Assembly: GCA_039720395.1 (NCBI GenBank)
Contig: CM077827.1
Span: 9,153,991 to 9,217,990, forward strand
Direction: 5' to 3'
DNA: 64,000 nt
Source of the DNA: Liquidambar formosana
Taxonomy: Eukaryota > Streptophyta > Magnoliopsida > Saxifragales > Altingiaceae
Below the pieces are notes generated by a model. That model worked only from the letters and a program-made list of their open reading frames with translations. It did no database searches and was not told where the DNA came from. Position numbers and translations under genes: made by a program. This document shows positions 5,508 to 63,100 of the stretch, one piece after another. Numbering within the stretch: the first letter of the stretch is position 1; the number at the start of each line of letters is the position of its first letter.

Positions 5508-7491
5508 CGTGCGTGTGTTTTGTTCTGATTCTAGAATCTAGGGTAGTACCTTTGTTGCAATTGATCTCTTCGAGTGGTGAATAAGGATGCCTACGAACAA
5601 GATTAGGTGAGCCACAACTTCGTTTTCTTTTGAATTTTTGAAAGAGTAAGGAGAAATTGAGGGTCTACCGAAGAACTTTTCCCTATGTGTTTGGATGTTG
5701 AGATTGGAGATCAGGTTTATCCCTTAGGGTTCATGTAGTCTCCGGTTTGCAAGGAAATTGCGGGAGAAATTTGGCTTGAAATATGGTTTGAATAAGTCTT
5801 GTGATGACAAATAAATGGAGGGCTGTTTCGGTGAGGAGTATGGTTAGTTGTAACCCAGTCCAGGGGTTGAAGGTAATGGGGGAGGGCCTGTTGGGACAGG
5901 TGGTAGTCAATTGGGTAGGAAGCATGAAGCCCCTGGCGTGAATGTGGGTGAGTATAGTAAAAACGGGGACGAGTGTGCTTTAGATTTTAATTCTAATTTT
6001 TTTTGATAAAGTGATTTTAATTCTAATTTGAATCCTAATAGGGCTTCACAACAGCCTGGGTCAGATAAAGAGAAGGTGATTAATGAGTCTCAATTGAGGG
6101 ATAAATAATTTATAAAGGAAGATGGGAAGACGGGCCTTTGTTTGGCAGTTTATAAACCAGCCCAGTTTGGCTTGAGAAGGTTTTGAATTTAGCTTCAGGT
6201 GTGAATGTGGGTCTTAGCCCGAATGGGGTTAATGAGGGTGCTGTGTTTAATTTTGTGAGGCCTATATTGGCACCCAAAGACTTGCTTTTCATCCTCCACT
6301 TATTTTAAACTTTAAGATTTTATAAAAAATATAAAACGTTTTTATAAAAACCGAACATGCTATCCATTAAAAAACATTATTTTGAACAACTTTGTAGAAG
6401 AAATTTTTTTTAAAATCTATCGTTTAAGTGGAATTTTTGGCAATTTACAGTCTTTGTTGTATAAATGGATACAAAGTCTATTTAAACAATAGATTTTTGA
6501 AAACCTTTATTCTACGAAATTGTTCAAAATGATGTTTTCTAATAAATTATATAATAAGTTTTTATGAAAACCTTTTATATTTTTTGGTAAAATCTTAAAA
6601 TGTAAGGCAAGTGGAGGATGAAAAGCAAGTCTTCGGGTGCCAATAGAGGCCTCCTTAATTTTGATTGAGAAAGTATTGGGCTTAGGCCAAATTGGGTTGC
6701 TTTGGGCGGTAGTAGGGCCCATTCTAGTGGGATTTTATTTGGGCTTAAATCGAAGGTGAGGACTTCAATGTCTACAGGGGTTTATGAAGATGGCGTAGCT
6801 GCTCTTCATGGTTGGTTCGATTGTGAGAGGTCGTTTGGGTCTGATACGCTGAAACAGGGGGATGATCATAGGCGTGAATGCGTGATGTGGTAGAGGATCC
6901 TTGGGTTCATTCTGTGTTCGAGGTGAGAGGCATTTCTATTAGTGAGGTGTTGAGGGTTCATGTGGATAGGGTAGAGGTTGCTTCGATGCTGCTGGAGCAA
7001 GTTGATCTCTCGGATTTTGAGAGCCTTGCATCTTGCTTGGAGTTTTCTGACGGTGTTTCTTCCTTCGTGTTGAAGTCAAAGGTCCAGTTGTGTCCGACAT
7101 TCTTGAAGGGTTGTAGGATTTGTTTGATGCTGATGAGGTACCTCCTTCTGATCTGCGCTCTGTTCATCATCAATAGTATGTTCTCTTTTTTAGCATAATG
7201 TTTCATCTGAATCTGGTTCCTTAAGGTGCTGTTTAGTCACATCCGAATTATTATTATTGGGAAAAAGGGTCTCAGTGGCTTCTCTGTATCTAAGGGATGT
7301 TGATGGGGACTTGTGTTACACGGATTCGGCATTTACCCCCAAGGTACCTATGTCAACATGACACGACACGGGTGTGGGTATGGGATCCTTGTCGGATCTT
7401 GCAAATGGAAATCGGACACGGCTCAAACGGCTCACAGAGAAGAAGAAGAAGGAGAAGAAGAAGAAGAAGAAGAAGAAGAAGAAAAAGAAAA

Positions 7492-7538
<47 letters not shown>

Positions 7539-9988
7539 GTGCATATCTGCTCATCGGATGGTGGCTTGAGGCTCTGCCAGAGGTATGTTGATGGAGAAGT
7601 GTCAACGAGCTTCTGGTCGAGATGGAAGCTCCAGTCGTCGAACTTCTTGGTCGAGATCAGCAGATCGCAGCTTCTCGTCGAGCGCTCTCCAGAAGCTTCT
7701 TCTCATCCCCTTTTCTTTTTCTGTTTCTAATTTTGTCTTGTTCTCTCTGTAAATAAAGCGACTTTTAAGTTTCCATATTTTTAAAGTCCATACCTCTATT
7801 TTCTTTATTTTTAAAATGACCACAATTTAATATTTTTATTTAAACCCTCAAAATTAACTATTTCGACAATACCTATATAAAATTAGAATGTTTTCAAGTG
7901 TACCCCTCACGTATCCCCGTACCCGTACCTGATTTTTGGATCCTTTTTTGCCGAATCCCCGTATCCTAAATTTAGAAATTTGATGCACCCGACACTAGGA
8001 TACACACCCACACCTGATACCCGCACCCGAGTCCATGTAACATAGATGGGGACAGCATGCATATGGTTCAACAGGATGGTCCAGCTTGGCCTATTAACTT
8101 GGAGACCTAGGCTCTAGTATATTTTAGGCAAATTTATTTTTAAGAATAATTAAGTTATTGCCTTTTAAATTCCTAGGTAGAGTTTTTCCTTATTTGATGT
8201 AATTGGGACCTATATATAGGCTCCAAAATTCTCTTTACTTTTCAGATTATTATGAATTAAAATTGGGTTTTCCCACGTTTGGTGTTCGACTCCAAACAAA
8301 CCCTAGCTAGGGTTCCTGCTTCTTGCTTCTTCCAGGCTTCTTTCCTAGCTTTTTTTTCTCTACTTCTTTCTCTCTTTTTTCTCTTTTACATGCTTTGAGG
8401 TTGTCCTGCATCAGATGTGATCTTGCTTCCTCTTCACTTGTTTGTTCATATTAAATTTGGGGAATGGGCAGTCCTTTAATTCTAGTTTTGAGAATGCTTA
8501 TAATCTATTGTTTGTGAGACCAGGTTGACTGTTGGACCTGAGTGTGACAAGGCTAACGTTAACTTAGGTTCTGACCTTGTGGATTTGCTGAATATGAGTT
8601 GTGTTTAGGGTCATTTTGTTCCTACAAGTACTCCTACTTTTGGTGTGATTGGTACTGGGGACAGGGAGAGCATTTTGATAAAGATTGTGATCTGTGGGAT
8701 AGGGGATGGAAGGATGCGTTTTCTTTCTCTCTTGATGATAAGGGCTGGGCTAATTGGAAAGAATTTCTAGGGTGAATGAACTCGACTCTTTTTGGGAGGA
8801 GGGGTAGGGATACGAAGGGTTGTCTTGTTAGGGTTGTGGAGGGGAGTGGTTCAGGAAGGAGTGTGGTGTCTAAGGACGTAGAGGTTTCAGGGAGTTGAGA
8901 AATCTCCAGTCTAGTGTGAACTATGGTGAAGCTAGTTTTAGGAAAGGGAATGGTGTTGGGTAAGTTTCAATAAATATTTTTAATTGGAATTGTAAAGGTC
9001 TTGGATTGAGAAGGGAACGATGTTTAATCAAGGCTTTTTTGGTTAAAGAGTGTTCACATATCGTAATTTTTCAAGACACTAAATTGGAATTAGTGGTGAG
9101 GATATTTGTTAAAACTCCATGGGGTTTTAGGTTTAAAGAATGGGCAGTTCTTCTGTCTGTTCAGATATTATTTTTATTTTTGCCTTTTTTGGCTTGTATT
9201 TTTAGACACGTGACCGTGTGAAAGCTTTTTGTTTACATGGCCCAATGTACCTAGTACTTTGCAAGTGTAAACAATAAAGTGGGTACAGATGTTTTCTCCT
9301 CGAATCATTTTATTTCTTACTAGAACACTCAAAATTTGGAAAAAAGCAACCGTAATTTATACTTAATATCCTATGAGGCTTATGTGCACGACACATGCTT
9401 AAAGCGCAGTCTCATTAAACTTGGGTTTATATGAAGTGTCAAATGTTATCTGCTTTCATTTTTACTTCAGTTAAAATTTTGTTACTTTTGATATGATAAA
9501 AATTTGAAAATAAGGACATACTTCTCATTTTGCATTCTATGTTTGTTTGTTTCCTTGGTTATTTATAACATTTCCGATCATCAGTTGGATCGTATGTATG
9601 TATGTATGTTATGCTTATTGGTGCATGGTTTATGTACTACTTTTTCAAAACTCAACAGGGAGTCCATTTGTTTTTGTATCCTTGTCTCATGTCTAATCTC
9701 TGTTCACAAGATATCTTGAACTCTGTTTTGGCAATTTCAGTTGGTTTTCAAATGTTTTATACCGCACAAATCAGTTCCATTACCATAGGAGATATAGAGG
9801 AATCTGTGCTATACTTTCTGTCCTGGATGGAGAATTCTTACAACCGATATCATCTCATTATTATCTATTATAATTATTTTTGCACTCTTTCTGCAACACG
9901 GGTTGCTTATATTATATTCTTCTTGGTTAGGGAGGAGAGGTTACGTCAACAGGAGAGCAGCCTTGCAGAAGATAAAGGAAAGTATTGA
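2046..9988 (+). CDS. Unidentified gene, three 3'-terminal exons (partial)
   Basis: Three exons with proper AG/GT borders join in one frame: 2046-2084, 3422-3466 and 9931-9988, ending in TGA at 9986-9988. The phases agree at both junctions: the first ends TG and is completed to Trp by the G opening the second, and the second ends AG and is completed to Arg. The product is very charged, with IGKRIERSRKEKW, then EQEYAELEALRVKE, then EERLRQQESSLAEDKGKY and the stop, so it looks like a helical or coiled-coil tail. I do not recognise the family. The first visible exon opens with a split codon, so the gene starts further left, possibly outside the window. The last intron is about 6.5 kb and contains a LINE and two MITEs. 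The exons are short, so chance agreement is possible. Confidence 0.5.
3655..3870 (+). repeat. Inverted copy A of a segment found again at 20325-20520
   Basis: About 200 bases, including the phrase caaacacaatttatgtttg and the (AC)n run at about 3850-3882, reappear in reverse complement at 20325-20520. Both copies end next to a CA/GT microsatellite. This marks a dispersed duplication within the window. Confidence 0.8.
3850..5515. repeat. Microsatellite-rich intronic stretch
   Basis: This part of the large intron carries (AC)n near 3850-3882, (TA)n near 4103-4116, 4594-4655 and 4836-4850, and a long (GT)n run at about 5459-5518. Open frames over these runs are low-complexity artefacts. I see nothing else here. 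Confidence 0.85.
6256..6654. mobile_element. Fold-back MITE, family A copy 1, 9-bp TSD
   Basis: The ends are inverted repeats (TGAGGCCTATATTGGCACCC against the complement of the right end, GGAGGCCTCTATTGGCACCC). Exact 9-bp duplications TTAATTTTG lie at 6247-6255 and 6655-6663. Almost the whole 399 bp folds back on itself. The 9-bp duplication points to the Mutator superfamily. The element sits inside the LINE remnant. Confidence 0.88.
7311..8044. mobile_element. Mutator-type MITE, family B copy 1, 9-bp TSD
   Basis: It is flanked by exact 9-bp duplications GATGGGGAC (7302-7310 and 8045-8053). The ends are imperfect inverted repeats: TTGTGTTACACGGATTCGG on the left and, complemented, TATGTTACATGGACTCGGG on the right. 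A (GAA)n then (GA)n microsatellite lies inside at about 7438-7533. Long open frames over it are repeat translations. A related element lies at 49576-50203. Confidence 0.85.
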
Positions 9989-21333: not shown

Positions 21334-21530
21334 AGGGCCTCTATTGGCACCCCAAGACTTACTTTACATCCTCCAACTCTTATGGTTTTTTAAGATTTTA
21401 TAAAAAATATAAAAGGTTTAATGAAAATTGGCTGCATACACTATTAGAAAATATCATTTTAAACAACTTTGTAAAAAAAATTTTTTTCAAAAATTGTTGT
21501 TTAAGTGAACTTTTTGGATATTTACGTGAT
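21334..21530. mobile_element. Half of a family A fold-back MITE
   Basis: It begins GGGCCTCTATTGGCACCCC and follows the left arm of the element at 6256-6654 for about 190 bp, then stops. The right arm is missing, so it is a truncated copy. Confidence 0.7.
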
Positions 21531-21614
21531 TGAGACTATAAAACTCCTGCCTACTTGAGCCCAACCCGACTTCATAAAAATGAGCTTGGCCTAGGTTTAG
21601 GGTGGGAAAGACAA

Positions 21615-22126
21615 GGGAATGGCTATTGCAACCCCCCATTCTTATCACTCCACCCCCCATCCTATAGGTTTTTAAGGTTTTATGCAAAACATCAAAGGTT
21701 TTTATGAAAACCGACCATGAATTTCATTAGAAAACATCTTGTTGAACAACTTTGTAGAAGAAAGTTTTTCCTAAATCTATCGTTTAAATATATTTTTTTA
21801 GCCATTTATAGCCTTTATTTCATTTTTTGCCAAAAAGTCTACTTAAACGATAGATTTTGGAAAAACTTTTTCCTACAAAGTTGTTCAAAATGATGTTTTC
21901 TAGTGGACCAAGTGATTAGTTTTGTAAAAACCTATTATATTTTTCATGAAATCTTAAAACTCAAAAGGAAAGAGGTGGGGTGATAAAAAAAGAGGGGTTG
22001 CAATTAGAGGTGTTAATGGTTTTGGTTAAAACCGAGAACCAAACCGAACCAAACCGAACCGAGCGTTTTGGTTTGGTTTTGGTTTTCAGTTTTAAAAAAC
22101 CAAACCAAACCGAAAAAAACCAAAAA

Positions 22127-23755: not shown

Positions 23756-26700
23756 CCTTTTTTTTTTGTCAATTAGGTTTAAAAGAGTGTTCAATGAATT
23801 TTACTTGTATCAGAAAGAGTTAAGAAGGAAATCTGAATTACTCGGGAAAATACTATGATTCGCTAATTATTACTTACTTGCTGAAGTCATGAAGTGGGCA
23901 CATAATTGTAGACTTCCTTTAAATTTTGTTATGGTTTGTGCAATGCTAGATTACTAGAGATTTCTACCCTATTTTTTTAAAAATGATTAATGGTTCTTAG
24001 GACCAATGGTGGAACTCGAATTTTAGTCTTGGAGGGTCACGAATCAAGACTAATAATAAGTATAATTTTTCCCCCCTACTTGACAATAACGAGAAAAAAA
24101 TAATAGTGAATTGAAAATAAATATACAAACTAAAAAATTGATTGATATTTGAACAATGCCCCCATAACCCCAAAAAAGACTATTCAATACTTTTATTTTT
24201 CCATATCCTATTTTAACTAACCGAATTATGAATATCATGATTGAGCTATCAATTGTAATTAAATATAAAAAGTATAGGTCGAAACTATGAAATTAGCAAA
24301 ATTAGGGTAGAAAAATGGAAAACTAAAATATTTTAATGTTTGAGTAGGGTAAAGATAAAGATATCTATTAATGAAAGGGTCAAAATAAAAATAAAGTCGA
24401 GTCAAGTAAGATGTCAAAGGGTCAAAATATATTTTAGGAAGGGTCAAATTTAGAAATATTATAAACTTAGTATAAAATATATATATATATTGAATTCGAC
24501 ATGGATCCCCATTCTTCTTTGGGCTAGCCAGCTGTCGGATTTATTGCTCAATGGGGGATGTTTTTTGTTCCTTGAAACCACCTTTTTGGTGCAACAAGGT
24601 GTTCTACAAACACCAAAACAGCACCTAAATGTGATAAAATACGTTCTAACATGGCGTCTAAATACCACCTGAAAGAATGTTTTGTCAATGACTCAATGGT
24701 AATGAATGTTTAATTATTCCAGCATGTTTTATGCAGTTTGTTGCTAAGGATTGACCACTGGAGCCAGAGCCAACCTTCATGTTCCTCAAGGAAAGATAAT
24801 GTACAAGGCTGTTTGAACAAAGAAGATGAACTGGAGCAGACTGTTGTGAAGTACACTGGTGATATTTAAATACTTGTGCGCCTAGCTATGATCAAGGTAT
24901 CAACTTCGCTACTCTCCTTGTAAACTTTCAGTCTTTTTCATATACTAGTTGGTGCACATGTGCGTTGCATGTGTCGATATTAAATATATAAATAATAATC
25001 GTTTTAAACTTGTAAAAATGCCAAAACATCCAAAAATTGTCATTAAATTAGGTAAACATATGTTTGTAAGGGAATTCTAATATGAAAAAAATAATATAAG
25101 TATTCTATCTTTGAATCTAAATTTTTTTTCTACCTCTTTGATTTTTCTGTTATCTTCACTTCCTTCTGATTCTTCATCCGGTATTTCTTTAATTTTTTCA
25201 GCAATGTAACTATTTTTTACTCGAATGAAGTCATCAATTTTCTTTAATTTTATGATGAACTTAAATATTTGGATATGATTTTTTTTTTTTTTTTTCAAAT
25301 CTATTCTCTTTTAGTTTTAATCTCTTTTAGTTTCAGGTTTTTTTTTTTCACAGTATAAATTGACCAAGTATTGTTGGGAACAATTATATGGTGAATTTTA
25401 TTTTCTTCATTGCAAGTTTGCAAGCAATTGTACTAAATGGAGACAAAGGTCCAACCAAGTACAGTACATATCCAAGACAAACTCGATTTAACAGTCTCGT
25501 TTTGTTGTTGTACAAAATTCTCTCTAATTTGATTTATGTTTAAATTTTTTTTTTCAGATCTATTCTCTCTCTCTCTACCTCATTTCCTTTCTCTCCGTCT
25601 CTTTTTGTTTCTCAGTTTTAGTTTCTTTTTTTTTTTTTTCACTAATATATGTATTTTTTTTCACTAATTTATGTATTTTTGTTCCTTAGTTTTCGTTTCG
25701 AATGATTTTTCTTTCTTTAATTACAGTACCTATTATGATTATAAATTTATCTATCTAACTTATAAATTCATCAAAAATCAAACTTCTTCCCTAACAGTAC
25801 CGTATATATATTATAATTTACAGAGCAAAACTTACCAAAGAAGGGTAATGCTAAAAATAAAAAATAAAAAGACAGATGGTAGTCATTTTTAAGCATATAT
25901 ATAATCAATTTGTAATAAGTTGACAAATATATCCTTTGTTTGGTATTACATTAGAAAATGATTACCAAAAAGTAATTTTCTTAAAAAAAACTCCAGAGCT
26001 TTCAGTTCCCACTTCACAGAATCATAACACGTTACCTCCATTGGAGATAATTCCTGACTTTGCTCCTGATCCGTAGTAGGGTGTCTTTTGCAAATGTGCT
26101 CCAAATTAAAGCTTGTTACTTACAAACAAACAAAAAAAAAAAAAAAACAAAAGAAAAGAAAATTCAACCAAAAAAAAAACAAAAAAAGCAAGCAGCTTGT
26201 TATTTTAAGGGTTGCTTTTGCTTTATCAAATGTGACCTCGATAACTTCTGCAAGGCAAAAAGGCAAAGAACAAAACAGAATCCATTTAAGAATAAAATAT
26301 AATATGATAAGAAAAAGAAGAGAACTTGAATAATAAGAAAGCTTACCTTTGTGTGTTTGATAAAAAATACTCTAAAGCTTAAGACACAGAACATTTGTAT
26401 ACGTGAATATGAATTTGTCATTAACCTTCTCAGATTCATCTGTGAGATCTCACGCCGGCCTCCTTGTAAGCACGTTGAAGTTGTAGTAGAAGAGACAGAA
26501 AAGAAAGTGGAGGTATTCGACCCCAATGAATAAACAGCACATGAACAATGAACTTACCCTAGACCTCTGGCCTCCATTAATCCCCGATATCATGTAAAGC
26601 TATCGCCCACTTGAACAATTAAACATTTGAGAAAACTGGGTGATTGATTCTTTGAATTTCTATTTTATATATTAAGGTATGTGTTTTTAGAATATATTAA

Positions 26701-26978
26701 AGTATGTGTTTTAGAATTATAGTTTTCATATTCCTATATATTTCTATTTATTATATAGGAATTATAGTTTCCATTTCCTTTGAATTTCTATTTGTGTTTT
26801 ATATATTAAGGTATGTGTTTTAGAATATATTAAGGTATGTGTTGTAGAATTGTAGTTTTCATATTACTATATTTCCTATATATGCAGAAGGGCGGGTAGT
26901 TGTGTATTTAAAAATTAAAATAAGGGTATATTAGTCAATCAAAAGTTTTTCTTACATTCATCTTTTTATAGGTAGTAT

Positions 26979-27064
<86 letters not shown>
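23756..27064. other. AT-rich stretch with a possible large element
   Basis: No gene was recognised. In-frame sequence at about 24738-24870 reads LLRIDHWSQSQPSC and ends at TAA, possibly a gene relic. An element may start at about 24948 (actagttggtgcacatgtgcg) and end near 26985, because 26930-26985 resembles the ends at 19262-19330 and 50495-50560. Imperfect tandem repeats of ttaaggtatgtgtttta lie at about 26670-26880, and a long (TA)n run at 26977-27046. Confidence 0.4.
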
Positions 27065-28021
27065 ATTATATTTGGGAGAGGATCCATGGACTCATAAAAA
27101 GCACTTAATTTTTTACACAACTTATTAGCCATCAGATCTTAAAAGATCCAAAGGTCTTAAACAATGTTGATGTGGTTAGTTTTTTTAACCTGAGCTGATG
27201 TGGCAGTGATATATATCATTAATTTTAAAAAAAATGAAGTACTAATAAGTTGCACAATCCCCAGATCTACGTTCCCTCTTCCCTCTTCCCTCTTACCAAT
27301 CCATCTTCTCTCTCACCAAACCCTAGGTTGGGAGATGGCGGGCTGACAGCAAGATACCGACAACGATAATTTAACGAGGGTGCAACAGGACACTATAGAG
27401 ACGATGAGTACTGTTTGAATCCTCCTGTTAGTTTTATATCTCAAATCCTTTGAAGAAAAAGATGAATCTCTAATGGCGGGTTCACGGGTGAGACGATGAC
27501 ACTAGGACAGGGGGCGGAATTCTAGCAACTCTTAGGAACTTAATTCCTTTCTTTCTCTACTTTATTTTCCTTTTTCCTCACCAAATGGTTGAATCAAGAG
27601 GTTCCCTTTTGGTTTCAACCTCTGGGTTGATTGTTTAGTTTTTTATAGATAAAAGAGGTCTCTCTCTCTTTTTTTTTTTTTCGGTGCTTCCTACCATATC
27701 GTGTGTAAATTGTGACCTGATTTGGTTATGAATAAAAATGGACACCAGTTGGTCTAAATTTTTTTCTATGGCTTCAATAAGGAATGATTTGTTGATATTT
27801 CAGTTTACCTTTAGATTGAAATGCTGTGACCTTCGAAACTGACAGTAAATAATGTAAATTGGTCCACAAATGATTTTAGAAAAGGTGTATATTATATTTT
27901 AGTCCAGATTCAAATGCAAATGATTGAATTTGAAGTTATATTTTATATTTTTTGACCTTCGGCATAGTAATGGAAGCATGCCTCATGGAGCATACTCATG
28001 GACGGTGGCAGTCTAGGCAAT

Positions 28022-28402
28022 TTAGGCTTTCCTTTCAGCATCATCAACTAGCCGTTGCACCTCTTCTCTTGTTTTTTCCAAATTCCGAGTCCTGAAATTT
28101 CCAATGTTGCTTTTGTTAAAAAACAGATGCCCAAGCTGACGCCTGATTGGAGCGGCCACGTACTCTCCGATTTTCTCCTCCAGAGTCTCTCTTCTTTTCT
28201 CGACAATGTAAAGGACTGCAAAGGAAAGCAGATAACCAAGTAGACACCCGATTGGAGGGTCGAGGTAGTCTCCAATTGGAAGGGCCACATACTCTTGGAT
28301 TTTCTCCACCACGTACTCTCCCATTTTCTCCGCCAGCTGGTCTCTGATTTTCTCCGCAATGTAAAAGACAGCAATTGAAAAGAAGACAAAGGACAGAGCC
28401 AT
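28022..28402 (-). pseudogene. Captured coiled-coil N-terminus of a CNL-type resistance gene
   Basis: A 126-codon open frame inside the Pack-MULE resembles the N-terminus of plant CC-NBS-LRR (CNL) immune receptors. It reads EKIGEYVAAPIRRQLGHLFF, then NKSNIGNFRTRNLEKTREEV and QRLVDDAERKA, close to the usual VAPIGRQLGYL...NIENLR...VQxSVDEAER pattern. The N-terminal part is internally duplicated: the phrase FYIAEKIRDQLAEKMGEYVV recurs as LYIVEKRRETLEEKIGEYVA. It stops before any P-loop or NB-ARC domain, so it cannot be a whole receptor. Whether it is expressed cannot be told from sequence. Confidence 0.75.
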
Positions 28403-28649
28403 TTCTTACCCCTTTTTTTTTCTTTTAGTTTTAAACAGAGAATACAAATAAAGAGAACTCAACGCAAGCCCAAAACAGACGAATAAGAGTTCTATTGGAG
28501 AGAAAAAAAATTAATGGTGAGGAAAACTGAAAGGAGTGAAAGTTTTAGGAGAAACGAAGCTAAAACATCAATAGATTGATTTGGCGAGCATAATGGAGCA
28601 AAAGAATTCAAGAGCAGATGGAAGACTCCTTGTTTGGTGCTGTTTTGCT

Positions 28650-28900
28650 TTTTAAAATCCATCCCTGCTAACGGCGTTAGCTTCAAATGGATATGGTGCA
28701 CAACTAAACCTAGAAATGCTTACCTCAGTTTGAGAAGAAATTCTAGCTATTGGAGCCTCTAAGTCTCCTACTCCCACCATTTGAGATTCTTTGAGAGAGG
28801 GAGGATTTGAGATGGTTGCCTCAAAGTCTCCCACTTCGACCATTACAAATTCTTTGAGAGAGAAAATTAAGATGGACGTATACAAATTATAAAAAATCAT
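28650..28900 (-). pseudogene. Possible upstream exon inside the Pack-MULE
   Basis: On the minus strand a frame reads KEFVMVEVGDFEATISNP and then ESQMVGVGDLEAPIARISSQ, an internal duplication, and is followed by a donor-like GTAAGCATTT at about 28721. It could be a leader exon spliced toward the NLR-like frame at 28402, or unrelated captured sequence. I do not recognise it. Confidence 0.35.
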
Positions 28901-29543
28901 CTTGTCACTGCAACCTCATCGGATTATTATCGTCGGTATCTCGCTACCGGCCCGTTGTCTCCCAACCTAGGGTTTTGTGAGAGAGAACGGTGGAGTGGGT
29001 AGAAGGAAGATAGGAAGAGGAAACATACTTGGATTTGGGGATTGAGATATTTTATGATACTTGATTTTTTTTTTTTTTTAATTGCTAATATATACCAGTG
29101 CCACATCAGCTCAAGTTAAAAAAACTAACCACATCAGCATTATTGTTTAAGACACTTGGATCTTTTAAGATCTGATGGCTAATAAGTTGTGTCAAAAATT
29201 AAGTGTTTTTTATGAGTCCATGGATCCTGTCCCATTATATTTAGAATTAATATATACATTTTTTTTATAATTAATATATACAGTTTAATTAGCACCATAT
29301 ATGATTGTCATAAATTTTCTTATTATTAATTATTCTACCAGAAAATACATATTACTCTAAATCAAATTTCCTCAGTTTTTCAACAGATCTTCTTGGTGCC
29401 AAAAATATGATCTAGGTTGTTTAACGAAAGATTATCTATATATATATAGATATATATTGGAACCAATTTTTACAACTAGTAGATTTAAGTTCCAAACCCC
29501 TAAGCTCTCCCTTTTTTTCAGCAAATTTTTTTTTTGGTTGTTT

Positions 29544-29560
29544 GGGGGGGGGGGGGGGGG
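29544..29560 (+). repeat. G17 homopolymer
   Basis: There are seventeen consecutive G residues, in a T-rich setting just upstream of a LINE fragment. Confidence 0.9.
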
Positions 29561-29608
29561 ATAAATAAAAGATTTTTTTTTTTTTAATTTTTAATTTTAT
29601 TTTATTTT

Positions 29609-30235
29609 ATGACAGCAGAGGTTTTACACGCTAGGCAGCGTCTTGTGCTGGCTTGGAAGAAAGGCTTTCGAAAGATCATTTTTGAAATTGACTCTAAAGA
29701 TGATAAGGAATCAATTGTTAATCCATGTGATGAGCTTCGCCCTCTTGGAGCCCTTATTCAAGATTGCAAGGATTTGAAGAATAGGGACTGGGATTGCAGA
29801 GTTACCCATACATTAACCCTCTATTTGGTTCATGGATTTTACTATGGAAAAAAAAGGGAAGGAAAAAAAAAATGGAGGAAAGAAAATAAAAGGAGAAGAT
29901 GAAATCATATCAAGCAAAAATTATGTCAATTATTCTTTTTCTACCAATTTACCATTGCAACCAAATAAGAAGAAGTACAATTCCTTATATTTTATTTTTT
30001 TTTCCTTGATATAATCCACGAGCCAAATAGAGCCTAAGGGAAGGGAATTTTTGCACCGATTTCCTCGCGAAGAATGGTGCGCTTGCTCAGGAAGAGTTAT
30101 GTATTTTTGAATCCCCCTGTAGGTATGCAAACCTTGCTCTTGCAAGATGCTAGAGGGGTCTCATTCCCCAGATTTGTTAGGTTGTAATTTTCTTTATTTC
30201 ATCTTTTTTTAATCAAAAAAAAATAAAATATTTCA
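29609..30235 (+). mobile_element. LINE 3' end with RNase H domain, interrupted by a MITE
   Basis: The frame reads AEVLHARQRLVLAWKKGF, then IIFEIDSKDD and LIQDCKDLKNRDWDCRV, a plant LINE-type RNase H domain. The frame resumes beyond the inserted MITE with EGNFCTDFLAKNGALAQEEL. A 3' tail with A-runs lies at about 30216-30235. Upstream LINE sequence is absent, so the copy is 5'-truncated, as is typical for LINE insertion. Confidence 0.8.
29817..30034. mobile_element. Tourist-like (PIF/Harbinger) MITE in the LINE
   Basis: This is a 218-bp insert flanked by TAA duplications (29814-29816 and 30035-30037). Its ends are inverted: CCCTCTATTTGGTTCATGG on the left and, complemented, GGCTCTATTTGGCTCGTGG on the right. 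TWA duplications and this TIR style fit Tourist elements. Removing it together with one TAA restores the RNase H frame. Confidence 0.82.
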
Positions 30236-30903
30236 ATTGAAGCATTTGGAAGAGATAATAGCCTTTTGCACGTCTTTCTGTCCTCAAAGAACTTCAATTT
30301 TAGAATATGGAATCATCTAGTTGTTTCTGGTTAGCTAGGTGTAGAGCAGCTAGCACAGTTTTTCTTTTTCTATGAACAGAAGGATTATTGCTTTAAAGGT
30401 CCTTAAAATTTTCAACCTCACCTTTTAGGTAGTTCTTAGGTAAAAAAACAACGGGGATCCCATTAAGGTGTATCATTAGGAAAAGAGTGGTCCTAAAGGG
30501 CAGTGTCTTATAAATTCTTTCTTGTTTGTAATGAGAGGAGTGGGTGCATTATGAAAGCTTGGTAGGGTATGTTTGGGGGTTGTGGTTGAGAAGCTTCATA
30601 TATATGGGATTTTGGCACAAAGATATCACATTCAATTGGGGTTTGGTTTCCCCACAAATTTCAAACAAAAACATAACCAGTACCTAGTTAAAATGTAGAT
30701 GCCTAGGGCCAATAGTACTCTATCTAAATCTTACATCTCTGTACATACAAACGTGAAAAAATCACATTTAACTGAAATTTGCTTTCCTCAACTTTTATTC
30801 ATGTCATTCCTTCCCTGCTTCTTACATTGTTGCTAATGTAGTGTTAAAATGTATGCAGTCATTAAAAAATATTTGTGTCATTCAATTTCCCCACTTAATT
30901 CCT
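30236..30903. other. Spacer downstream of the beta-galactosidase pseudogene
   Basis: Nothing recognisable lies here. On the minus strand it would be the 3' flank of the beta-galactosidase relic. Confidence 0.4.
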
Positions 30904-33745
30904 CTACACCCTGAAATTTGGCCAAGCAGTTGTAGTACCAATAGGGGCACAAACAGCTTCAGCCGATAATTTTTTCACCACATTTGGACACGGGTCTACG
31001 CCAAAGTTGCTTGTTGATATGGTCACTGAGCAGTTCTGCTGTCCTAAGCATTTCTGGAAAGATGGAAAATATATAAGAAAAATGAGGATCCAATCCAGTA
31101 TATTGAATGCCAATGTTTTAACATTTGAAAAAAAAAAAAAAAAATTATAATTTTACTTGAGCCTTCACACATTCTGAAATTTCAACCAATTTGACATCTC
31201 CTACACAAATTTTCCTTTATTTTCTTTTTCCAGATTCGGGTATTAAGTGCTTCAAAATTTTACATTGAAATGCAATTAAACACATAATGAAGTGGACCAT
31301 AGAAATAGGAAGCCGCAGTTTGAGTACATTTTCTACAACAGCATATGAGGTTGGAGCATGACAGGTTCCTTGCTGGAAGTTCCCACAAGTTCCAGACAGA
31401 GTTCCAAAACTTGCAAATTTAATGGCAGAAATGGACTGCCCAGCTGCACATGGCAGGTGAAACTCAGGCTTGTTCAACACATGATTTGCCATAGCTATCA
31501 ATAAGCCAATTTTTAGCGGTTGGGTGATACTCAGAAACTTCAGCACATAAACTGGTGAACGATCTTTTCACAAGAGAAATCTTGGATGCATCCCCACCAA
31601 TTTCCTCAAAAAGTACCAATAGATTTTGGTTGGCTTCAACCAAGACCGAGGAACATGGTACCTGGAAACCCAAAAAATTTTTAAGGACTTTAGCATGAAA
31701 ATTTTTCCATTTAGTCTTCAATTCTATCACATTAATTGAATATAAATGAGGTTTGAGAAAAATTCTTGCCATCGTTGAGTTGGTTGACCACAACCAAATT
31801 GGCACTTTGTAGGTCGAAATGTGCCAGAATAACTACACCCATTGCAATTACCATTACCATAAGAAGCCCAATATCTCTCAATGCTCTGCCCATTGATCCA
31901 TACTTGACCCTTCCCCATGCTTCCCATGTCCAAAGCCAAGGGCTCAACTCCTTTTGGTGCTTTGAAATAAGCTTGCAAGTTCAAATAGGAATTTACATAT
32001 CAAAAAAGTAAACATTAGGAGATTTGGGGACTCTAAGACTGAATCAGAAATATCACTATTCATCTTGGAATTTCCATTTTTTATACAATCTAATTTGACT
32101 TGATACATTGTCATGAGTCCTGTATTCTTCATTATCTTTCCCAAAACCCATTTTTGAACACCTTTATAACTTTCACACCAAACTTGTTATCTAAGTTTGT
32201 GGATCATGTTCAAGTTTACAACTTCAAACCATGCAACTGCAGTTTATATACTTGCAAGAGGCACAAAAATAGGCCATAATCAAACATTTTAGTGGCCATT
32301 ATAAGTCCAACATCAAAGTTGCTTTGAAACATACTGTAATGTACTAGACTCCTGTATAACACTGAGTTCCAAGGTAAGGGTAGAGTTTACTGATTTCATA
32401 CAGTATCACTCTTGAAGTGCTTTCTTACAGAAGCTGATACCGCCTTACCTTATGTGTAAATAAAAGTCCGGCCATTTAGAATGTGGAAATAAAAGTCTAT
32501 CAAATTACATTCTCAAGTACCATATTTCACCCACAATCTTTCCTTAAAAAAGGAATTTGAGATAGGTCATCAGACATCACTCAAATGCCTATTAGACAGA
32601 CCTTTAAAATTGCATATTCATTATTCCCATACCTTATACCATGTCAATGGTTGATTTTTCTGTGCAACCAAGGACCCTCGCATCCAATCAACTGATGAAA
32701 TACCATTTGGAGAAGCTAGATTCATAGCTTCACCTTTGAGCCCAACCTGTGTAATATAACACCCATAAAGCAACGACTTCCTGAATAAACAATGCATTGT
32801 TAAAATATACGGAAGATTCATTGACCTGGTATGACCGTTTTCCTTAAAGGTAAATCTCCTGTTTTCTCGAGTCCCAAAGGCCAACCCTATCATTTGAGCA
32901 CAACAGCACAAACATTTTAATAACTTTTCAGCATGTCAAATAGATTTCATTGTCTTCTTAATACTAATTAACTGTCAAATCATAATGTAGTCCTATTTTG
33001 CTCTCTCTGAGAATAAGAAATTTAACAATGTACCTGAATGATATCCATTGATAAACACAAGCATAGCATAGCCTGTTGACTGCATAGTGAGAGTGGGATC
33101 TTGGTCTCCATGCAGAAATGATTCAGATGAACTTATGTCGACCCTGGAAAAATCTTGTCGTTGGGAAAGTTAAAAGGACAATAATTTTATATTCAACATA
33201 AAAAAAATATATAAAAAAAAATTGGAGAAATAAATTTCGATTCTCTCTGACCTCGTCGTATACCAGAGATAGTCGCTTATATCTCTCGTGACGTTTAACT
33301 GCTCCAAAAGACCAACGACTGTGATCTCTGAATCTGAATCTTCATTAACTGAGACTATGTCTTCCTTGAATGTCTCCCATGGAAACAATTGTGCATTAGT
33401 GGGCAACATTTGCATCTAGGTTGTTTGAACTCCAACCTGCAACAGAGAGATGCAAAAGTTTATTGTCTCAGCATGTACTATAAATCTTTAGAACAAGGTC
33501 ACTGTCTCAACATTCAAGCCATTTCAACTTAAGCTTCATTTGTTTGAGAAGACAAACATATCAGGAAAAGTAGTGTGCATCAACGTTGTTGAATGAGGCA
33601 TATATCATTATGATGGTAACAAAAATATGTTTTTGAGAAGCAAGGCATCATAGAAATTTCTACAAAATTGGATAAATCCATAATCATAGCTTGTAGTAAT
33701 GAAAGGGCCTCCAGCAGTTCTTCCCAAGTTGGTTCCTCCATGGTA
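30904..33745 (-). pseudogene. Beta-galactosidase (GH35) pseudogene with C-terminal lectin domain
   Basis: Recognisable minus-strand exons follow the family order. At 33745 downward is the end of the catalytic domain ([20 protein letters not shown]). Then come 33252-33436 (LLEQLNVTRDISDYLWYTTR), 33034-33143, about 32860-32897 (AFGTRENRRFTF), 32633-32746 (VGLKGEAMNLASPNGISSVD), about 31780-31965 ([14 protein letters not shown]), about 31470-31690, and 30904-31053 with the galactose-binding (SUEL) lectin end (ISTSNFGVDPCPNV) and stop. All 5' catalytic exons are missing. The reading is broken by TAG at 33416-33418 where relatives have Gln, loss of sequence after SYDY, a missing block after FTF, a damaged acceptor near 31966, a GC donor, and a 1-base deletion in the exon near 31650. 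Active homologues work in the cell wall. This copy cannot make an enzyme. Confidence 0.88.
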
Positions 33746-39150: not shown

Positions 39151-39154
39151 ATTT

Positions 39155-40095
39155 TTAAAAATTTTAAAAAATATAAAATATAAAATTATGTACATGTGAC
39201 ATGTGGCAAGGGAACATTATCTTCTTCTTTCTTGGAATGGGTTGCCAACAAACCCAAATCATACATGCATGAGTTGTTTTTGTTATCATATCCTCAACTT
39301 TGAACCTCTATATTTTCTTTAATTCTTGGCCAGATTGAGTGATTGGAAAGCCAAATTAAAGATCACATAGGATTCTAAAAAGGAATTCTAATGGTTCAAT
39401 CAAACACGCTCAAAATCATGCAGGTTTTGTAGCTCAAAAATCATGGGTCATAACTCGTTTTCTACAAATTTCAATCCAAAAACTTCTCTTTTCAATATCT
39501 CACTTGTTTCTCAGCGAAACATGGTGATTCAAACACTGGTTCAAGATTATTCAAAACTCTACAAGTCTATATAAATCAAACGTGAATTTTTTTAAAAAAA
39601 AAAAACAATCCAATTAGTGCGTATATACCTGAGTTGGTACCATTAAATCATATTGTTTTTTCAAAAAAAATTCATATTTGATTTATATAGACTTAGTAGA
39701 GTTTTGAATAATCTTGAAAATGGCTTTTGAATCATATTGTTTCGTTGAGAAATGAATGAAATATTGAAGACGAGTTTTCGGATTGGAATTTTTAGAAAAT
39801 GGGTTTTGACCCATGATTTTTGAGCTATAAAACCCGCATGATTTTGAGTGTATCCCATTAGAATAACTTTTTAAACCCCCACGCAATATTTAATTTGGAT
39901 TTCCAATCACTCAATTTGTTCAAGAGTTTAAGAAGATATAAACTATAAAGGTTCAAAGTTGGGGATTTGATCACAAAAATGACCCATCATGTAGGATTTA
40001 GGTTTGTTGGCAACCTGTTCCAAAGAAGAAGATAATGTTCCATTGCTATGTGTCACACCTACATAATTTTAGATTTTTTATTTTTAAAAATTTCA
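39155..40095. repeat. Long near-perfect inverted repeat (about 430-bp arms)
   Basis: The left arm, about 39155-39595, is the reverse complement of about 39660-40095, with some 65 bp between. Matching landmarks include ggttgccaacaaacc, aactttgaacct, gattgagtgattggaaa, and tctatataaatcaaa near the loop. A transcript through it would fold into a hairpin several hundred base pairs long. It may be a fold-back transposon; no target duplication was resolved. Confidence 0.85.
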
Positions 40096-40415
40096 AATAA
40101 ATGTTAAATAATTTTTTTAAAATCCAAAAAATTTAGGAAATTCCCAAGAATTAAGGAAATTTTTTTTTGAAAAATCCAAAAACAAAAATTCCAAATTTTG
40201 GGAATTTTTTTTAAAGTCCAAAAAATTAAGGAATTTAAAAAAAAAATCCAAAAAATTAAGGAAATTCACAAAAATTATTTAACAAAATTTTAAAAATGAT
40301 TTCCCTAATTTTTGGGAATTTCCTAAATTTTCTAGAATTTTTAAACATTATTTGACATTTATTTAAGATTTTTAAACATAAAAACCTAAAATTATGTGCA
40401 TGTGACACGTGCGCG
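40045..40415. repeat. Second inverted repeat sharing the same end
   Basis: The right end of the long hairpin (gtgtcacacctacataattt) is itself inverted at 40375-40410 (aaattatgtgcatgtgacac). This produces a second fold-back of about 370 bp with AT-rich arms (aaataaatgttaaataat and its complement). Confidence 0.75.
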
Positions 40416-43319: not shown

Positions 43320-46300
43320 ATGGGTTGTAGCAACTTCTTCTACACCTTACTCATAACCTTCTCGGTAGCTTTGGTAACATACAACATAATTATCTCTGCA
43401 AATGCCCCTCTCAAACAGGAATTCCCAAACCCATCACCATTATCATCGTCATTCTCAGTTGACCCGATCATTAAGATGCCAGTAGACAGATCAAGAACCG
43501 CCGCCTCTTCAAAGAGGTTGTTCCACACTGCAGTCACGTCCTCAGACTCTGTGTACAACACATGGCAGTGTAGGATCATGTACTACTGGTTCAAGAAGTT
43601 CAAGGATGGACCCAATTCAGAGATGGGTGGGTTCACCAGGATCTTGCACTCTGGGAAGCCTGACAAGTTCATGGATGAGATCCCTACCTTTGTTGCTCAG
43701 CCCCTCCCATCTGGGATGGATCAGGTATGCTTGGGTTTCTTCTAGTTTCTTAATTTGTTTCCTACACTTTGTTAATCATTTTGAATTCGTGTTGTTGTTG
43801 TTGTTTGGTGGCTTTTTGTTTTTTTTGGTGAGTTTTAGGGAATAAGGGTGTGTACACGAGTTTTGAAACATTTTTAGGAATATTTCCTTGTGGGTTTTCT
43901 TGGTTCATGCCTTTTGCATTTTTGGTACTCTGGAAATTGGTTTCTTGGAAGGTTCTTTCTATTCCATTGGTGGAAACTAGGCTTAGCCACCCCAAATTAG
44001 TGCCAATTTAGGCCAATTATTCGGCCTCAGATTAATCTTGAATCTTCGAGTTGGTTTGGAAAATATTGGGATTAATACAGAGAAAAATTAAGATTAGATT
44101 TGTGAGTTAAATTGAATGTTAAATCCGTTTAGATATATCTGTTAATTGTTAGTAATACTGATAAGGAGCAATTTGGGAAATTCGAGAATTGCTTGTATCA
44201 TTAGAATATTGGGTAATAACCTTAAATTTATTAAAATATGCAGAATTAATTTGAATTTTATTCATTTCATGGAAAGACTAGGATAAGTACCGGAAATTTA
44301 CCTCAATCTTCTTTTTTACTGATTGGCGAATGGCGGATTAGTAGCTTAGCTTCCTTAGCTGTTTCGGTGTGGAAAAAGGGTCTGCCACACCATTTTTTGG
44401 TCTGTTTGGAAGGAGATAAACAGGAAAACCTTTGATGGGGAGGAATGGTTCTTGGGGAAGCTGAGAAGATGATTTTTGGATTTCCTTTTTGAGTGGGCTG
44501 AGCCAGCAAGTTTTTCCAATCAGGTCCCTATACAGTCTTTTGTTGATGCTTTGAATTGTTGTTTTTCTTTCTGTCTTGTACCACACATGTACAGGGGTTA
44601 TTTTCCCTTCTTTAAAAAATTATTACTTCATTAAAAAAAAGAGTACCGGAGATTTGGGAATTAAAAATTTTGCTGCAATGCTTATCATTTGTTTTTGGTA
44701 GAAATTTGTTTGTTTGTTTATTTTTTGTGGAGGTTTTAGGCCATGAGTTTTCAGTTCAGGTTCTCTGTTGTTGGACATTGTGGATTTTCTTTAGGAACAT
44801 GCAATGAAACTTTCAATGGATATTTGAGGAGATGTTTTCCTATTCTATATCTGATTAGTCACCGTGTTGTTGGATGGGAATTTGGGATTTCCATATCATG
44901 TCTGTCTTCACATTTTTGTCAAATATGTTTGGAATACCAATCAAGGGTAACAATAAAAATTTAGTCAGACAGATGGAATATGCTCTGCCTGAAATTAGTA
45001 TGGAGTAGAAAAACTTCTATCTATGTGTTTGAGATGGGTTGTTTGATTGACCAGAGAGTGTTTAGGCTAAATAATGGTGAATGAATAATTAACAGGGGAG
45101 AGAGAAAAGGGAATTGGGGGGGGGGGGGGGGGGGGGGGTGCGGAGGGAGGAGGAGGATGATGAATGAAGAGATGACAGGGTCAGGGGGCCATATTATTGT
45201 TATTCCAAAACAGCCTGAGGAAACCTCTGGTCTGTGTTTGTCACGACTTGAGAATCTATCAAGCACCTCCTCTTCATATTAAGCTTGTTAGTCTGTGCTA
45301 AATTTACTCAGCTGATTAGCATCGAAACAAATCAAAGAGGGTTAGAATTCTAATATTCTGGTTGCTAAAGAATTGTTTCTTTTGCTAATAGAACATTAAT
45401 GATTGTTTTAAATTCACCATACTTGTGAGGGATCAATGATGATCTTAAACTTGAGTATTTTAATCTCTATTTTTGTGCTTGCAACTATAAATCATCTTCT
45501 ACTAAATGCATATACCATCTAATCTCACTATACAGGGTTATATAGTCCTCAACAGACCTTGGGCGTTTGTGCAATGGCTTAAAGAGGCAGACATAAAAGA
45601 AGAGTATGAAACATTTTACTCCCTATTTTAGTGGGACTTTAGTTTTTTGTATTTTAGTAGATTTGGTCCTATAAAAGATATTCATACTTTTTGTGCAGTT
45701 ACATATTGATGGCGGAGCCAGATCATATTATCGTCAAGCCTATCCCGAATTTATCTAGAGATGGGCTTGGAGCTGCATTCCCTTTCTTTTATATTGAACC
45801 TAAAAAGTACGAGTCTACCCTCAGGAAGTTCTTCCCTGAGGACAAGGGACCAATTACTAACATTGATCCAATAGGGAATTCTCCTGTCATTGTTGGGAAG
45901 GTACAAAATATGACATGCTTCATTAATAACCATGTAATTTATTTATTTGCCTTTTCTGGTTGTTTTGGATGACACACACACACACACACACATATAAATA
46001 TATATTTATATATTTTCATAAATGGTGTCAGGAATCTCTTAAGAAGATTGCTCCCATTTGGATGAATGTTTCCTTGGCCATGAAGAAGGATCCTGAAACT
46101 GATAAGGCATTTGGTTGGGTGCTTGAGATGTAAGCTTTTCCTGATTTGCCCAAGAATTTGTTGACTGTAATGCAGGTTCCTTTTCCTCATTTTTTTTTTC
46201 TTTTTTAAATTTATAATGATGAATATGCAGGTATGCTTATGCTGTTGCATCTGCTTTGAATGGCGTGGGTAACATCTTGTACAAGGACTTCATGATTCAG

Positions 46301-60100: not shown

Positions 60101-63100
60101 GCAAACCTGGGATAAAGAACAATTAACATACAGATCATTAGTTAAACATTATAAACATAAAATTAAGAGAAGCTAAAATGTTTTGTTACTTAAGACTACA
60201 CAAACATAGAAGGACTGATGCTAAACAATGGTTACCTAGCATAGGCTAACACATGCTAATACATATACCTACTTTTGCCTCTTAAATATAACTTAGTTCA
60301 GTGCTTACCACATTTACTCTAGGACGTGAAGCACCAGATACATCAAAAGCACTCATGGTGTCAACATTTGGGCATCGTGTTCCCGGTGTCCAGAGTCCAC
60401 AAACCATATGAACCCACTGCTTAACAGTTGAATCAAGTACTCCTGCTGTTATGGTGTTTAGTACTTCCGAATTTCTAGGAGAACCAGGTGAATTCTTTAC
60501 CATTTCTGATTGGTTCTGCAGATCCATTTTCCATGCAGCTGTAGAGGACGGCTCAATATTTACATATCTTATAACAGGAAAAAAGTCACCTTCAAGTTCA
60601 GATCTTGAGGAATTCAAGATGCTCAACTTATCCTTCAAAGCTTCACCAGGAGGGATTTTGTTCTTCGGCCTGTACTCTGTTTCAATGTTCCAAGCTTGCA
60701 AAAGGCTTTTCACAATATTGCGACTCCTCAGGGCTCGAGTCATTGCCCCACCTCCATAACCACAGAGAACACAAGCCTAGATGAAAGGAACACAAATTGA
60801 ACAAGAATTTAAAGACCAAAAATAAATAAATAAAATACATGCAGAAGAAAAATATACAAATTATATGTAAATCTAGCAATAGTCTTTTAATCAAAATAGT
60901 GAATGATCATTGCCATATGAACGTGGTATATAGATATATACACAAAGAAGAGAGATGTAATTCTATTTTACATCAAGAAGACCAATTTAAGGCTTTGCAA
61001 AACCCTAAAACCACATGGAAACCATCTAAAACTAACCCTACCATATTTGATAACAAATTTAAGACCCATAATTTATTAGCAAAACACTAAAAACTTTTGA
61101 AATAAGAAAATTCCAACAGTTTCAAATAATAAACTCCTAATAAGAATCAAACCACTCTGTTGATTCCGCATGTAGGGTCCGACCACAAGATTCCAATGCA
61201 TCAGTAACAAAGTCTGATCGTCCAAAATTATGAAATCATCACACTGTACACCATGTAAATTTCTTACTTTGGACTATTGTTATATATCCATCCTGTGCAT
61301 AGACATCAGTAAACATTTGATCATCAAAGATTTTTGTCTTATGCTGAAAAGGAAACAAAATTTAACTTTTATCCAAAAAACTATCATACCTTCTAAACCA
61401 GCCAATTAAATTTGAGGAAACTTATCAAGGTTAGTTTGATTGATATCTATAGATCAAATATTCATCAATAATTTCCAATGACTGGCCAGTGCTAGATATA
61501 ACCAAATGAGGTCAACTGTATTATAAAGGTTGCTCTATAGGCTATTGATGAATTGATAAAAGTATTGAACACTGCCTAAGGGTGATGCCACAGTTTCCAA
61601 GACATGTAAATTTGGTACTTCATCAACGAATTGGTATTAGTACAGATCAAATATTCATAAGTGATTTACAATGACTTCTCAATGCCAAGTTTAATCAAAT
61701 CAGATTCAGTGTATCGTAAAGGTTGCTATATAGGCTGTTGGTGAATTGCTAAGGATATATATATATATATATTTTGATAACGAGGAAGCCCTCAGGGCAA
61801 ACCCCAGGCTCATATAGACCCCACAACCCATATAGACCAGGTAAATCCAAGGCCCATGAGAACCATGGAACCTTGTGTGGGTAGCGCCAAGAGGTTTAGT
61901 ATGAGTCAAACTCAGGACCTCCGCTTCCTGAGGTGGGACCCCTTGCCAATGAGCTACCCGTTAGGGTTAATTGGTAAAACTATTGAACACTGCTTAAGGT
62001 TAAGCCCACAGTTTCCAGCAAAAATTTTAGCTAAATAAAAAAGGATGTGGATCAAGTCATTGTAAAACTACTAGAGCTGAACTCAACAGACCACTCTTTC
62101 AATGATAGTTGAAAAATAAAATCAAAATCGAATTGCCCTGATCCAGTGATCCCAGTTTCACCAGGAAGCTGAAGACCATCATTTGCCCCATTATTTGGGA
62201 ACCAAGAGGTTATATGTAAGTCAATATTCAGCCAACATTGTAGCCTTGCACGATCTTAAGCCTTGCTACTGATACTATTTGTTACAAATCTAATTGGTAC
62301 TACTTCAGCCAATGCTCATAGCCATGTGGTAATACAATAAAATCTCTCATACAAATACAATAGTATACAAATAAATTTAGTAGGTAATGTATGCTTCATT
62401 CAATTTGTGTAGTAATAAAGTTAATGACATTTTGTCCTGATAAAAAGATGGATAAGCCAGATTTGAACAAAATTTAGTTCCTGTTGTAACATGTGAGATG
62501 TATTAGTTATAAGCATGAGGGTACTTTGGTCTTTTAATGTAATTTGACTTATTTTGATATAAATAAGAATATTGAGGGTTAGGGTTAGGGTTAGATCAAC
62601 CTAACCCAAAACCATTGTAAATAACATGGTATCAAAGCATATCATTCTTGGGCCGTTTCATTCATTAGCCCATATTTGTTGTCCATGTGATAAGCCGATT
62701 TCTATCTTGTTAGACCTGCATGGGAGGAGAAGTATTGGAAAATTACCACATCGCACATCTGTTAATTATAAAATTTGACATGGCTTGGCTTCATATACTT
62801 GTCTGAACCCTCCACCTAATAGCTTAGGCTTTTAGGTTGGAAACTTAACACATGCTTGGCCTATTCTTGTTCTTGTATGCACTGTGTCCAGTTTCTTACT
62901 TTCTTACAGGGCTTTTAGGCTCACCCTTTCACTATAGACGAGTAGAGTCAGGAAGGTATAGCATACAGTAGCTAAAGACTAGGACATTGAAAGATGCTTG
63001 GAGGCTAAGTGTTCCAATTTGATTAAAATTTTAGTTTCAATAGATAGGAAGCATTTATTTACTTATACATTCTGGATGAGTAGTAATTTATTTTTGGAGT

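Follow-up and report, generated by a model that had tools for sequence, protein, structure and literature searches.

Pack-MULEs are described in the defining passages of PMC4858842 as non-autonomous Mutator-like elements that are devoid of transposase fragments and carry a fragment of a non-hypothetical parental protein. According to excerpts of PMC4583175, the dispensable sequence of rice contains 35 such elements holding pieces of 37 genes, of which 20 are hypothetical and several are myb or zinc finger genes. Pack-MULEs are mentioned in general terms in parts of PMC12405883, and in the available portions of PMC3256180 and PMC5664825 the term occurs only in the reference list. Passages of PMC5819176 describe a search for Mutator-like elements (MULEs) near rice receptors and report insufficient evidence for MULE-driven receptor fusions; for that reason, concrete captures are useful test cases. 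Among the titles listed in the literature none named a Pack-MULE with a receptor N-terminus, a statement about those titles and not a claim of absence from print, and a text search with six short peptides of the cargo described below matched no paper.

Here we describe an element in Liquidambar formosana for which there is good support as a Pack-MULE holding the captured 5′ end of a CNL-type gene. It lies in a 64,000-nucleotide stretch of genomic DNA that was analysed as a whole (the window). MULEs are usually recognised by a 9-bp target-site duplication together with terminal inverted repeats of more than 300 bp. The element spans 2160 bp, from position 27074 to 29233 of the window, and exact 9-bp duplications abut both of its ends; when lengths from 1 to 14 were tried, only 9 fitted. 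It is composed of the following features:

27065..27073, no strand: left 9-bp target-site duplication, ATTATATTT, from sequence comparison of the flanks
27074..27384, plus strand: left terminal inverted repeat, starting GGGAGAGGATCCATGG, from alignment of the ends
27385..28021, no strand: interior of unassigned origin, GC 35.5%, with no significant similarity to the receptors L1049_012382 and L1049_012380
28022..28402, minus strand: 126-aa frame from ATG to stop, the 5′ coding part captured from an NLR (CNL-type) gene, assigned by homology to L1049_012382 and L1049_012380
28156..28227, minus strand: second copy of an in-frame internal duplication common to L1049_012382, from repeat search and alignment
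28309..28380, minus strand: first copy of the same duplication, likewise common to L1049_012382, from repeat search and alignment
28403..28908, no strand: interior of unassigned origin upstream of the ATG, GC 36.8%
28909..29233, minus strand: right terminal inverted repeat, with minus-strand start GGGACAGGATCCATGG, from alignment of the ends
29234..29242, no strand: right 9-bp target-site duplication, ATTATATTT, from sequence comparison of the flanks

The two inverted ends, about 310-360 bp long, share 80.9% identity over 325 aligned columns. In a longer global alignment they are identical in 296 of 359 ungapped columns, with a local score of 342 that compares with at most 31 in 200 mononucleotide shuffles. 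The 100-nt arms at 27073-27172 and 29135-29234 are 92% complementary. The exact duplications and long inverted ends claimed by an earlier, sequence-only reading of this DNA were both borne out. Because the remaining 63 of the 359 ungapped columns are mismatched, the element may not be young, although inverted ends of this kind can already differ when an element inserts. A similar end motif at position 6889 (2 mismatches) was set aside, as comparison of the element with the window gave no match there. Searches with the ends and the interior in 201 kb of the same genome, all from its first contig and far too small a sample to be telling, returned no match at E ≤ 1e-3.

On its left side, the DNA is rich in TA from about 26976 up to the target duplication. 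On the right, a LINE-type RNase H fragment (RVT_3, PF13456, E 1.5e-6) is located at 29588-29899, 355 bp from the element, and minus-strand exons of a beta-galactosidase gene lie within 31220-31999, with matches to PF21467 and PF02140 (galactose-binding and SUEL lectin domains). Further along the window, 43320-43745 is probably where a gene for a hydroxyproline O-arabinosyltransferase has its first exon (HPAT, E 1.3e-27), and 60285-60776 belongs to a gene with a zinc finger of PHD-like type (zf-HC5HC2H_2, E 2.4e-5; its 24.9 bits fall short of the cut-off of 27). Among the 25 of 26 inverted-repeat pairs listed for the window, those at 6257-6653, 21445-21902 and 39152-40384 are 77-87% complementary and could represent MITEs or nested fold-back elements.

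The scan of the element for a transposase gave none, as had been claimed before: all 11 overlapping stop-to-stop frames of at least 55 aa stayed below the Pfam curated cut-offs, and the only two matches listed were chance-like (E 0.2 and 0.05). The element thus combines an abutting duplication of about 9 bp, long terminal inverted repeats and, among frames of at least 55 aa, no recognised transposase, which are features of Pack-MULEs. Upstream of the cargo frame there is a 45-bp direct repeat (28755-28799 and 28818-28862, 84%), together with splice-like motifs on the minus strand, namely AGGTAAG starting at 28725 and a pyrimidine run ending in AATAG at 28510-28492. The segment from 28403 to 28908 could be the 5′ flank of the donor gene or another fragment.

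The cargo frame has its ATG at 28402 on the minus strand and comprises 126 codons, its stop ending at 28022. An ATG frame of at least 126 codons was found in 4 of 1000 mononucleotide shuffles of 27400-28899 (median 59). Since 12 of 125 overlapping 1500-bp tiles of the window, including the tiles of the cargo frame itself, hold comparable frames, length alone is weak evidence, and we regard the frame as real on the strength of its homology, not of its length. At 45.4% GC, the frame is richer than the window as a whole (34.1%), a level that is reached by 43 of 1272 overlapping tiles of frame length, its own included. Searches of the frame against Pfam and NCBIfam gave nothing above cut-off, and no PDB sequence matched at E ≤ 10.

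For the homology search, the frame was padded to receptor length and scored on its 126 residues alone against a database of 5,772,631,384 proteins. From 419 candidates, two proteins matched at E ≤ 1, both of them NB-ARC proteins of Liquidambar formosana: L1049_012382 (P0001, 555 aa; E 7.7e-50, 80% identity over 95%) and L1049_012380 (P0002, 526 aa; E 4.6e-22, 51% identity). The similarity to plant NLR N-termini on which the earlier claim depended was therefore found, and in both proteins it begins at residue 1. A search with the unpadded frame, restricted to proteins of similar length, returned nothing; the full receptors fall outside that length range. With residues 1-200 of L1049_012382 as query, only L1049_012382 and L1049_012380 were recovered at E ≤ 0.001 from 2042 candidates.

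The source records of both proteins read 'hypothetical protein', and it is the NB-ARC match that gives their identity (E 1.1e-45 in L1049_012382, 9.7e-41 in L1049_012380); through the 80% identity to an NB-ARC protein, the element contains a parental protein fragment of the kind expected in a Pack-MULE. No TIR, RPW8 or LRR family is listed for either protein in Pfam at E ≤ 0.01, and as annotated they are CC-NB-ARC proteins, with gene models that are possibly incomplete. Against PDB, L1049_012382 matched 22 distinct sequences at E ≤ 0.001, of which the best 20 are plant receptors, with the bacterial regulator AfsR in the last two places. These matches are confined to the NB-ARC, and CNLs, TNLs and RNLs are intermingled in their ranking; the plant receptors include NRC4, NRC1, RPP13-like protein 4 (presumably ZAR1), NRC2, NRC3, Sr35, MLA13 and TIR- and RPW8-type proteins. 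We infer the CNL class of the two proteins from the fact that neither TIR nor RPW8 is listed for them and from N-termini that are helical in models of very low confidence; their placement in the G10/ANL class is our guess. In the sampled genome sequence, L019 has at 9134-9316 a match to the C-terminal part of L1049_012380 (47.5% over 61 aa, E 2.3e-13), perhaps a receptor or a remnant of one.

Two hydrophobic stretches are present in the cargo frame, at residues 1-15 and 53-67 (15-residue Kyte-Doolittle means of 2.33 and 2.35). L1049_012382 likewise has two (means 2.59 and 2.61), and L1049_012380 has the first only (mean 1.65). Structure models of the cargo frame and L1049_012382 reached mean pLDDT values of 38.1 and 32.3, too poor for a reading of the fold. 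Residues 1-128 of L1049_012382 unite a duplicated N-terminal unit with two strongly hydrophobic stretches, which is unusual for a CNL.

The alignment delimits the captured piece on both sides. The start methionine is shared by the cargo frame, L1049_012382 and L1049_012380, and the frame is 80% identical to residues 1-125 of L1049_012382 and aligns with residues 1-83 of L1049_012380. Homology ends abruptly after AERK at K125, which is followed in the element by A and a stop; past the equivalent of K125, L1049_012380 goes on as GEVILQNVREWL. In L1049_012382, K125 is aligned to residue 128, and the NB-ARC match begins some 78 residues later, at 207. By this measure the frame contains about 60% of the pre-NB-ARC region of L1049_012382 and is not a whole CC domain, which would run from the methionine to the NB-ARC. 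In a CNL receptor gene an NB-ARC lies downstream of the N-terminal region, and none was detected in the window: tblastn of the two receptors finds the N-terminal piece only, all other matches having E 0.32 or more. Of the CC-region cargo proposed earlier, the assignment to an NLR N-terminal region stands, but a CC module as such is not supported, as the homology stops at K125.

The two copies of the internal duplication are 81% identical, in frame and 153 bp apart. The duplicated unit is single in L1049_012380, and both copies are collinear in the element and in L1049_012382. L1049_012382 aligns through both copies with no gap of comparable size; the duplication was therefore already present in the donor, and its origin inside the element was rejected; the duplication noted by the sequence-only reading exists, but it is derived from the receptor and is not the element's own. 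Near its 3′ part, the element is closer to L1049_012380 (GHLFF, NLEKTR, AERK) than to L1049_012382. As the element has residues common to each receptor but missing in the other, the donor was probably a third paralogue, with a duplicated first unit as in L1049_012382 and a 3′ part as in L1049_012380.

The observed ends, target duplications, homology with its limits and absence of a recognised transposase are, very probably, those of a Pack-MULE whose cargo is the 5′ coding part of a CNL gene, taken from a third-paralogue donor, and which is without selected function. In the sequence of events that we envisage, a non-autonomous Mutator-like element would have taken up, as DNA, the start codon and about 125 codons of the CNL-type gene from the paralogue. 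The transposase of an autonomous relative, acting in trans on the long inverted ends, probably drove the insertion into AT-rich DNA about 2 kb past the last recognised beta-galactosidase exon, with 9 bp being duplicated. If the element were transcribed from its right-hand end, a 126-aa peptide with two hydrophobic stretches could be made; most likely the element serves no selected function and has merely escaped decay so far. It is a cleanly bounded case in which a DNA transposon picked up the beginning of an immune-receptor gene, start codon included, and such captures are raw material for possible truncated or fused receptors.

Whether the open frame itself argues for function was judged from the alignment and from simulations. 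Of 77 columns common to the three proteins, 58 are identical; residues are private to the element in 4, to L1049_012382 in 8 and to L1049_012380 in 5, and all three differ in 2. Under simulated random base changes (substitutions only), the frame keeps its start and its openness in 70% of the simulations with 10 changes and in 24% of those with 40. Since private changes are not in excess and random changes often leave the frame open, the open frame was rejected as a sign of selection, and its intactness is compatible with recent capture and no selection. The net indels of the element relative to the receptors are whole codons, which leans slightly towards constraint or inheritance from the donor; a decaying copy would show whole-codon indels only sometimes. 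These indels, the retained start codon and the absence of a stop would also suit a small functional gene, in which the frame is expressed and its 126-aa product, a first-helix peptide, associates with donor-family receptors at the membrane or blocks them. Such a role would be in line with the passages of PMC7756659 in which 70.8% of the tested pepper G10-class CNL CC domains cause cell death and the first helix is critical, with those of PMC6944444 in which 29 N-terminal residues of NRC4 are sufficient, and with the transcription, translation and selective-constraint evidence for Pack-MULE interiors in parts of PMC4858842. The autoactive G10/ANL-class CC domains of pepper are likewise N-terminal receptor pieces that could be expressed alone, but in the same portions of PMC7756659 they extend to the P-loop, well beyond the end of the cargo frame, and the CC of RPS5 alone is reported to be inactive. 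Moreover, visible activity was reported for only 1 of 65 truncations, all of autoactive NRC4, in the relevant part of PMC6944444, and an open frame is expected after a recent neutral capture. We therefore consider a small functional gene decidedly unlikely. The stronger proposal, that a selected and expressed 126-residue receptor head with two hydrophobic helices tunes Liquidambar receptors through their first helices at the membrane, is very unlikely; if true, the element would spread a regulator of immunity through the genome.

Action at the RNA level would require that transcripts of the element give rise to small RNAs that match the donor receptor family in its 5′ coding part and dampen those genes. 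The long inverted ends may be a source of hairpin RNA, and small-RNA evidence for Pack-MULE interiors is mentioned in parts of PMC4858842; however, the ends are about 1.5 kb apart with the receptor part outside them, and no Rfam match was found in 25000-33000 at gathering scores, which leaves this mode of action improbable. As for the nature of the element, neither a transposase nor a sister copy was found by which its ends could be assigned to a named MULE family, as would also be the case for an inverted-repeat element of another kind that carries, or lies beside, a fragment of a receptor pseudogene; yet the 9-bp duplication abuts both ends exactly and, with ends of more than 300 bp, forms the MULE signature, so that a non-MULE origin is very unlikely. 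A Pack-MULE with a captured CNL start remains the reading that we prefer.

Compared with L1049_012382 and L1049_012380, the element aligns from residue 1 and shares the duplicated unit with the former and the AERK end with the latter, and it has neither the remainder of the N-terminal region nor the NB-ARC and what follows. Transposons that capture genes are a familiar phenomenon, and by itself the element is ordinary transposon biology. It resembles the Pack-MULEs of rice and other plants, as presented in parts of PMC4858842 and PMC4583175, in its long inverted ends, 9-bp duplications, gene fragment and lack of a recognised transposase; what is particular to it in comparison with these known elements is its cargo, the first part of an immune-receptor gene.
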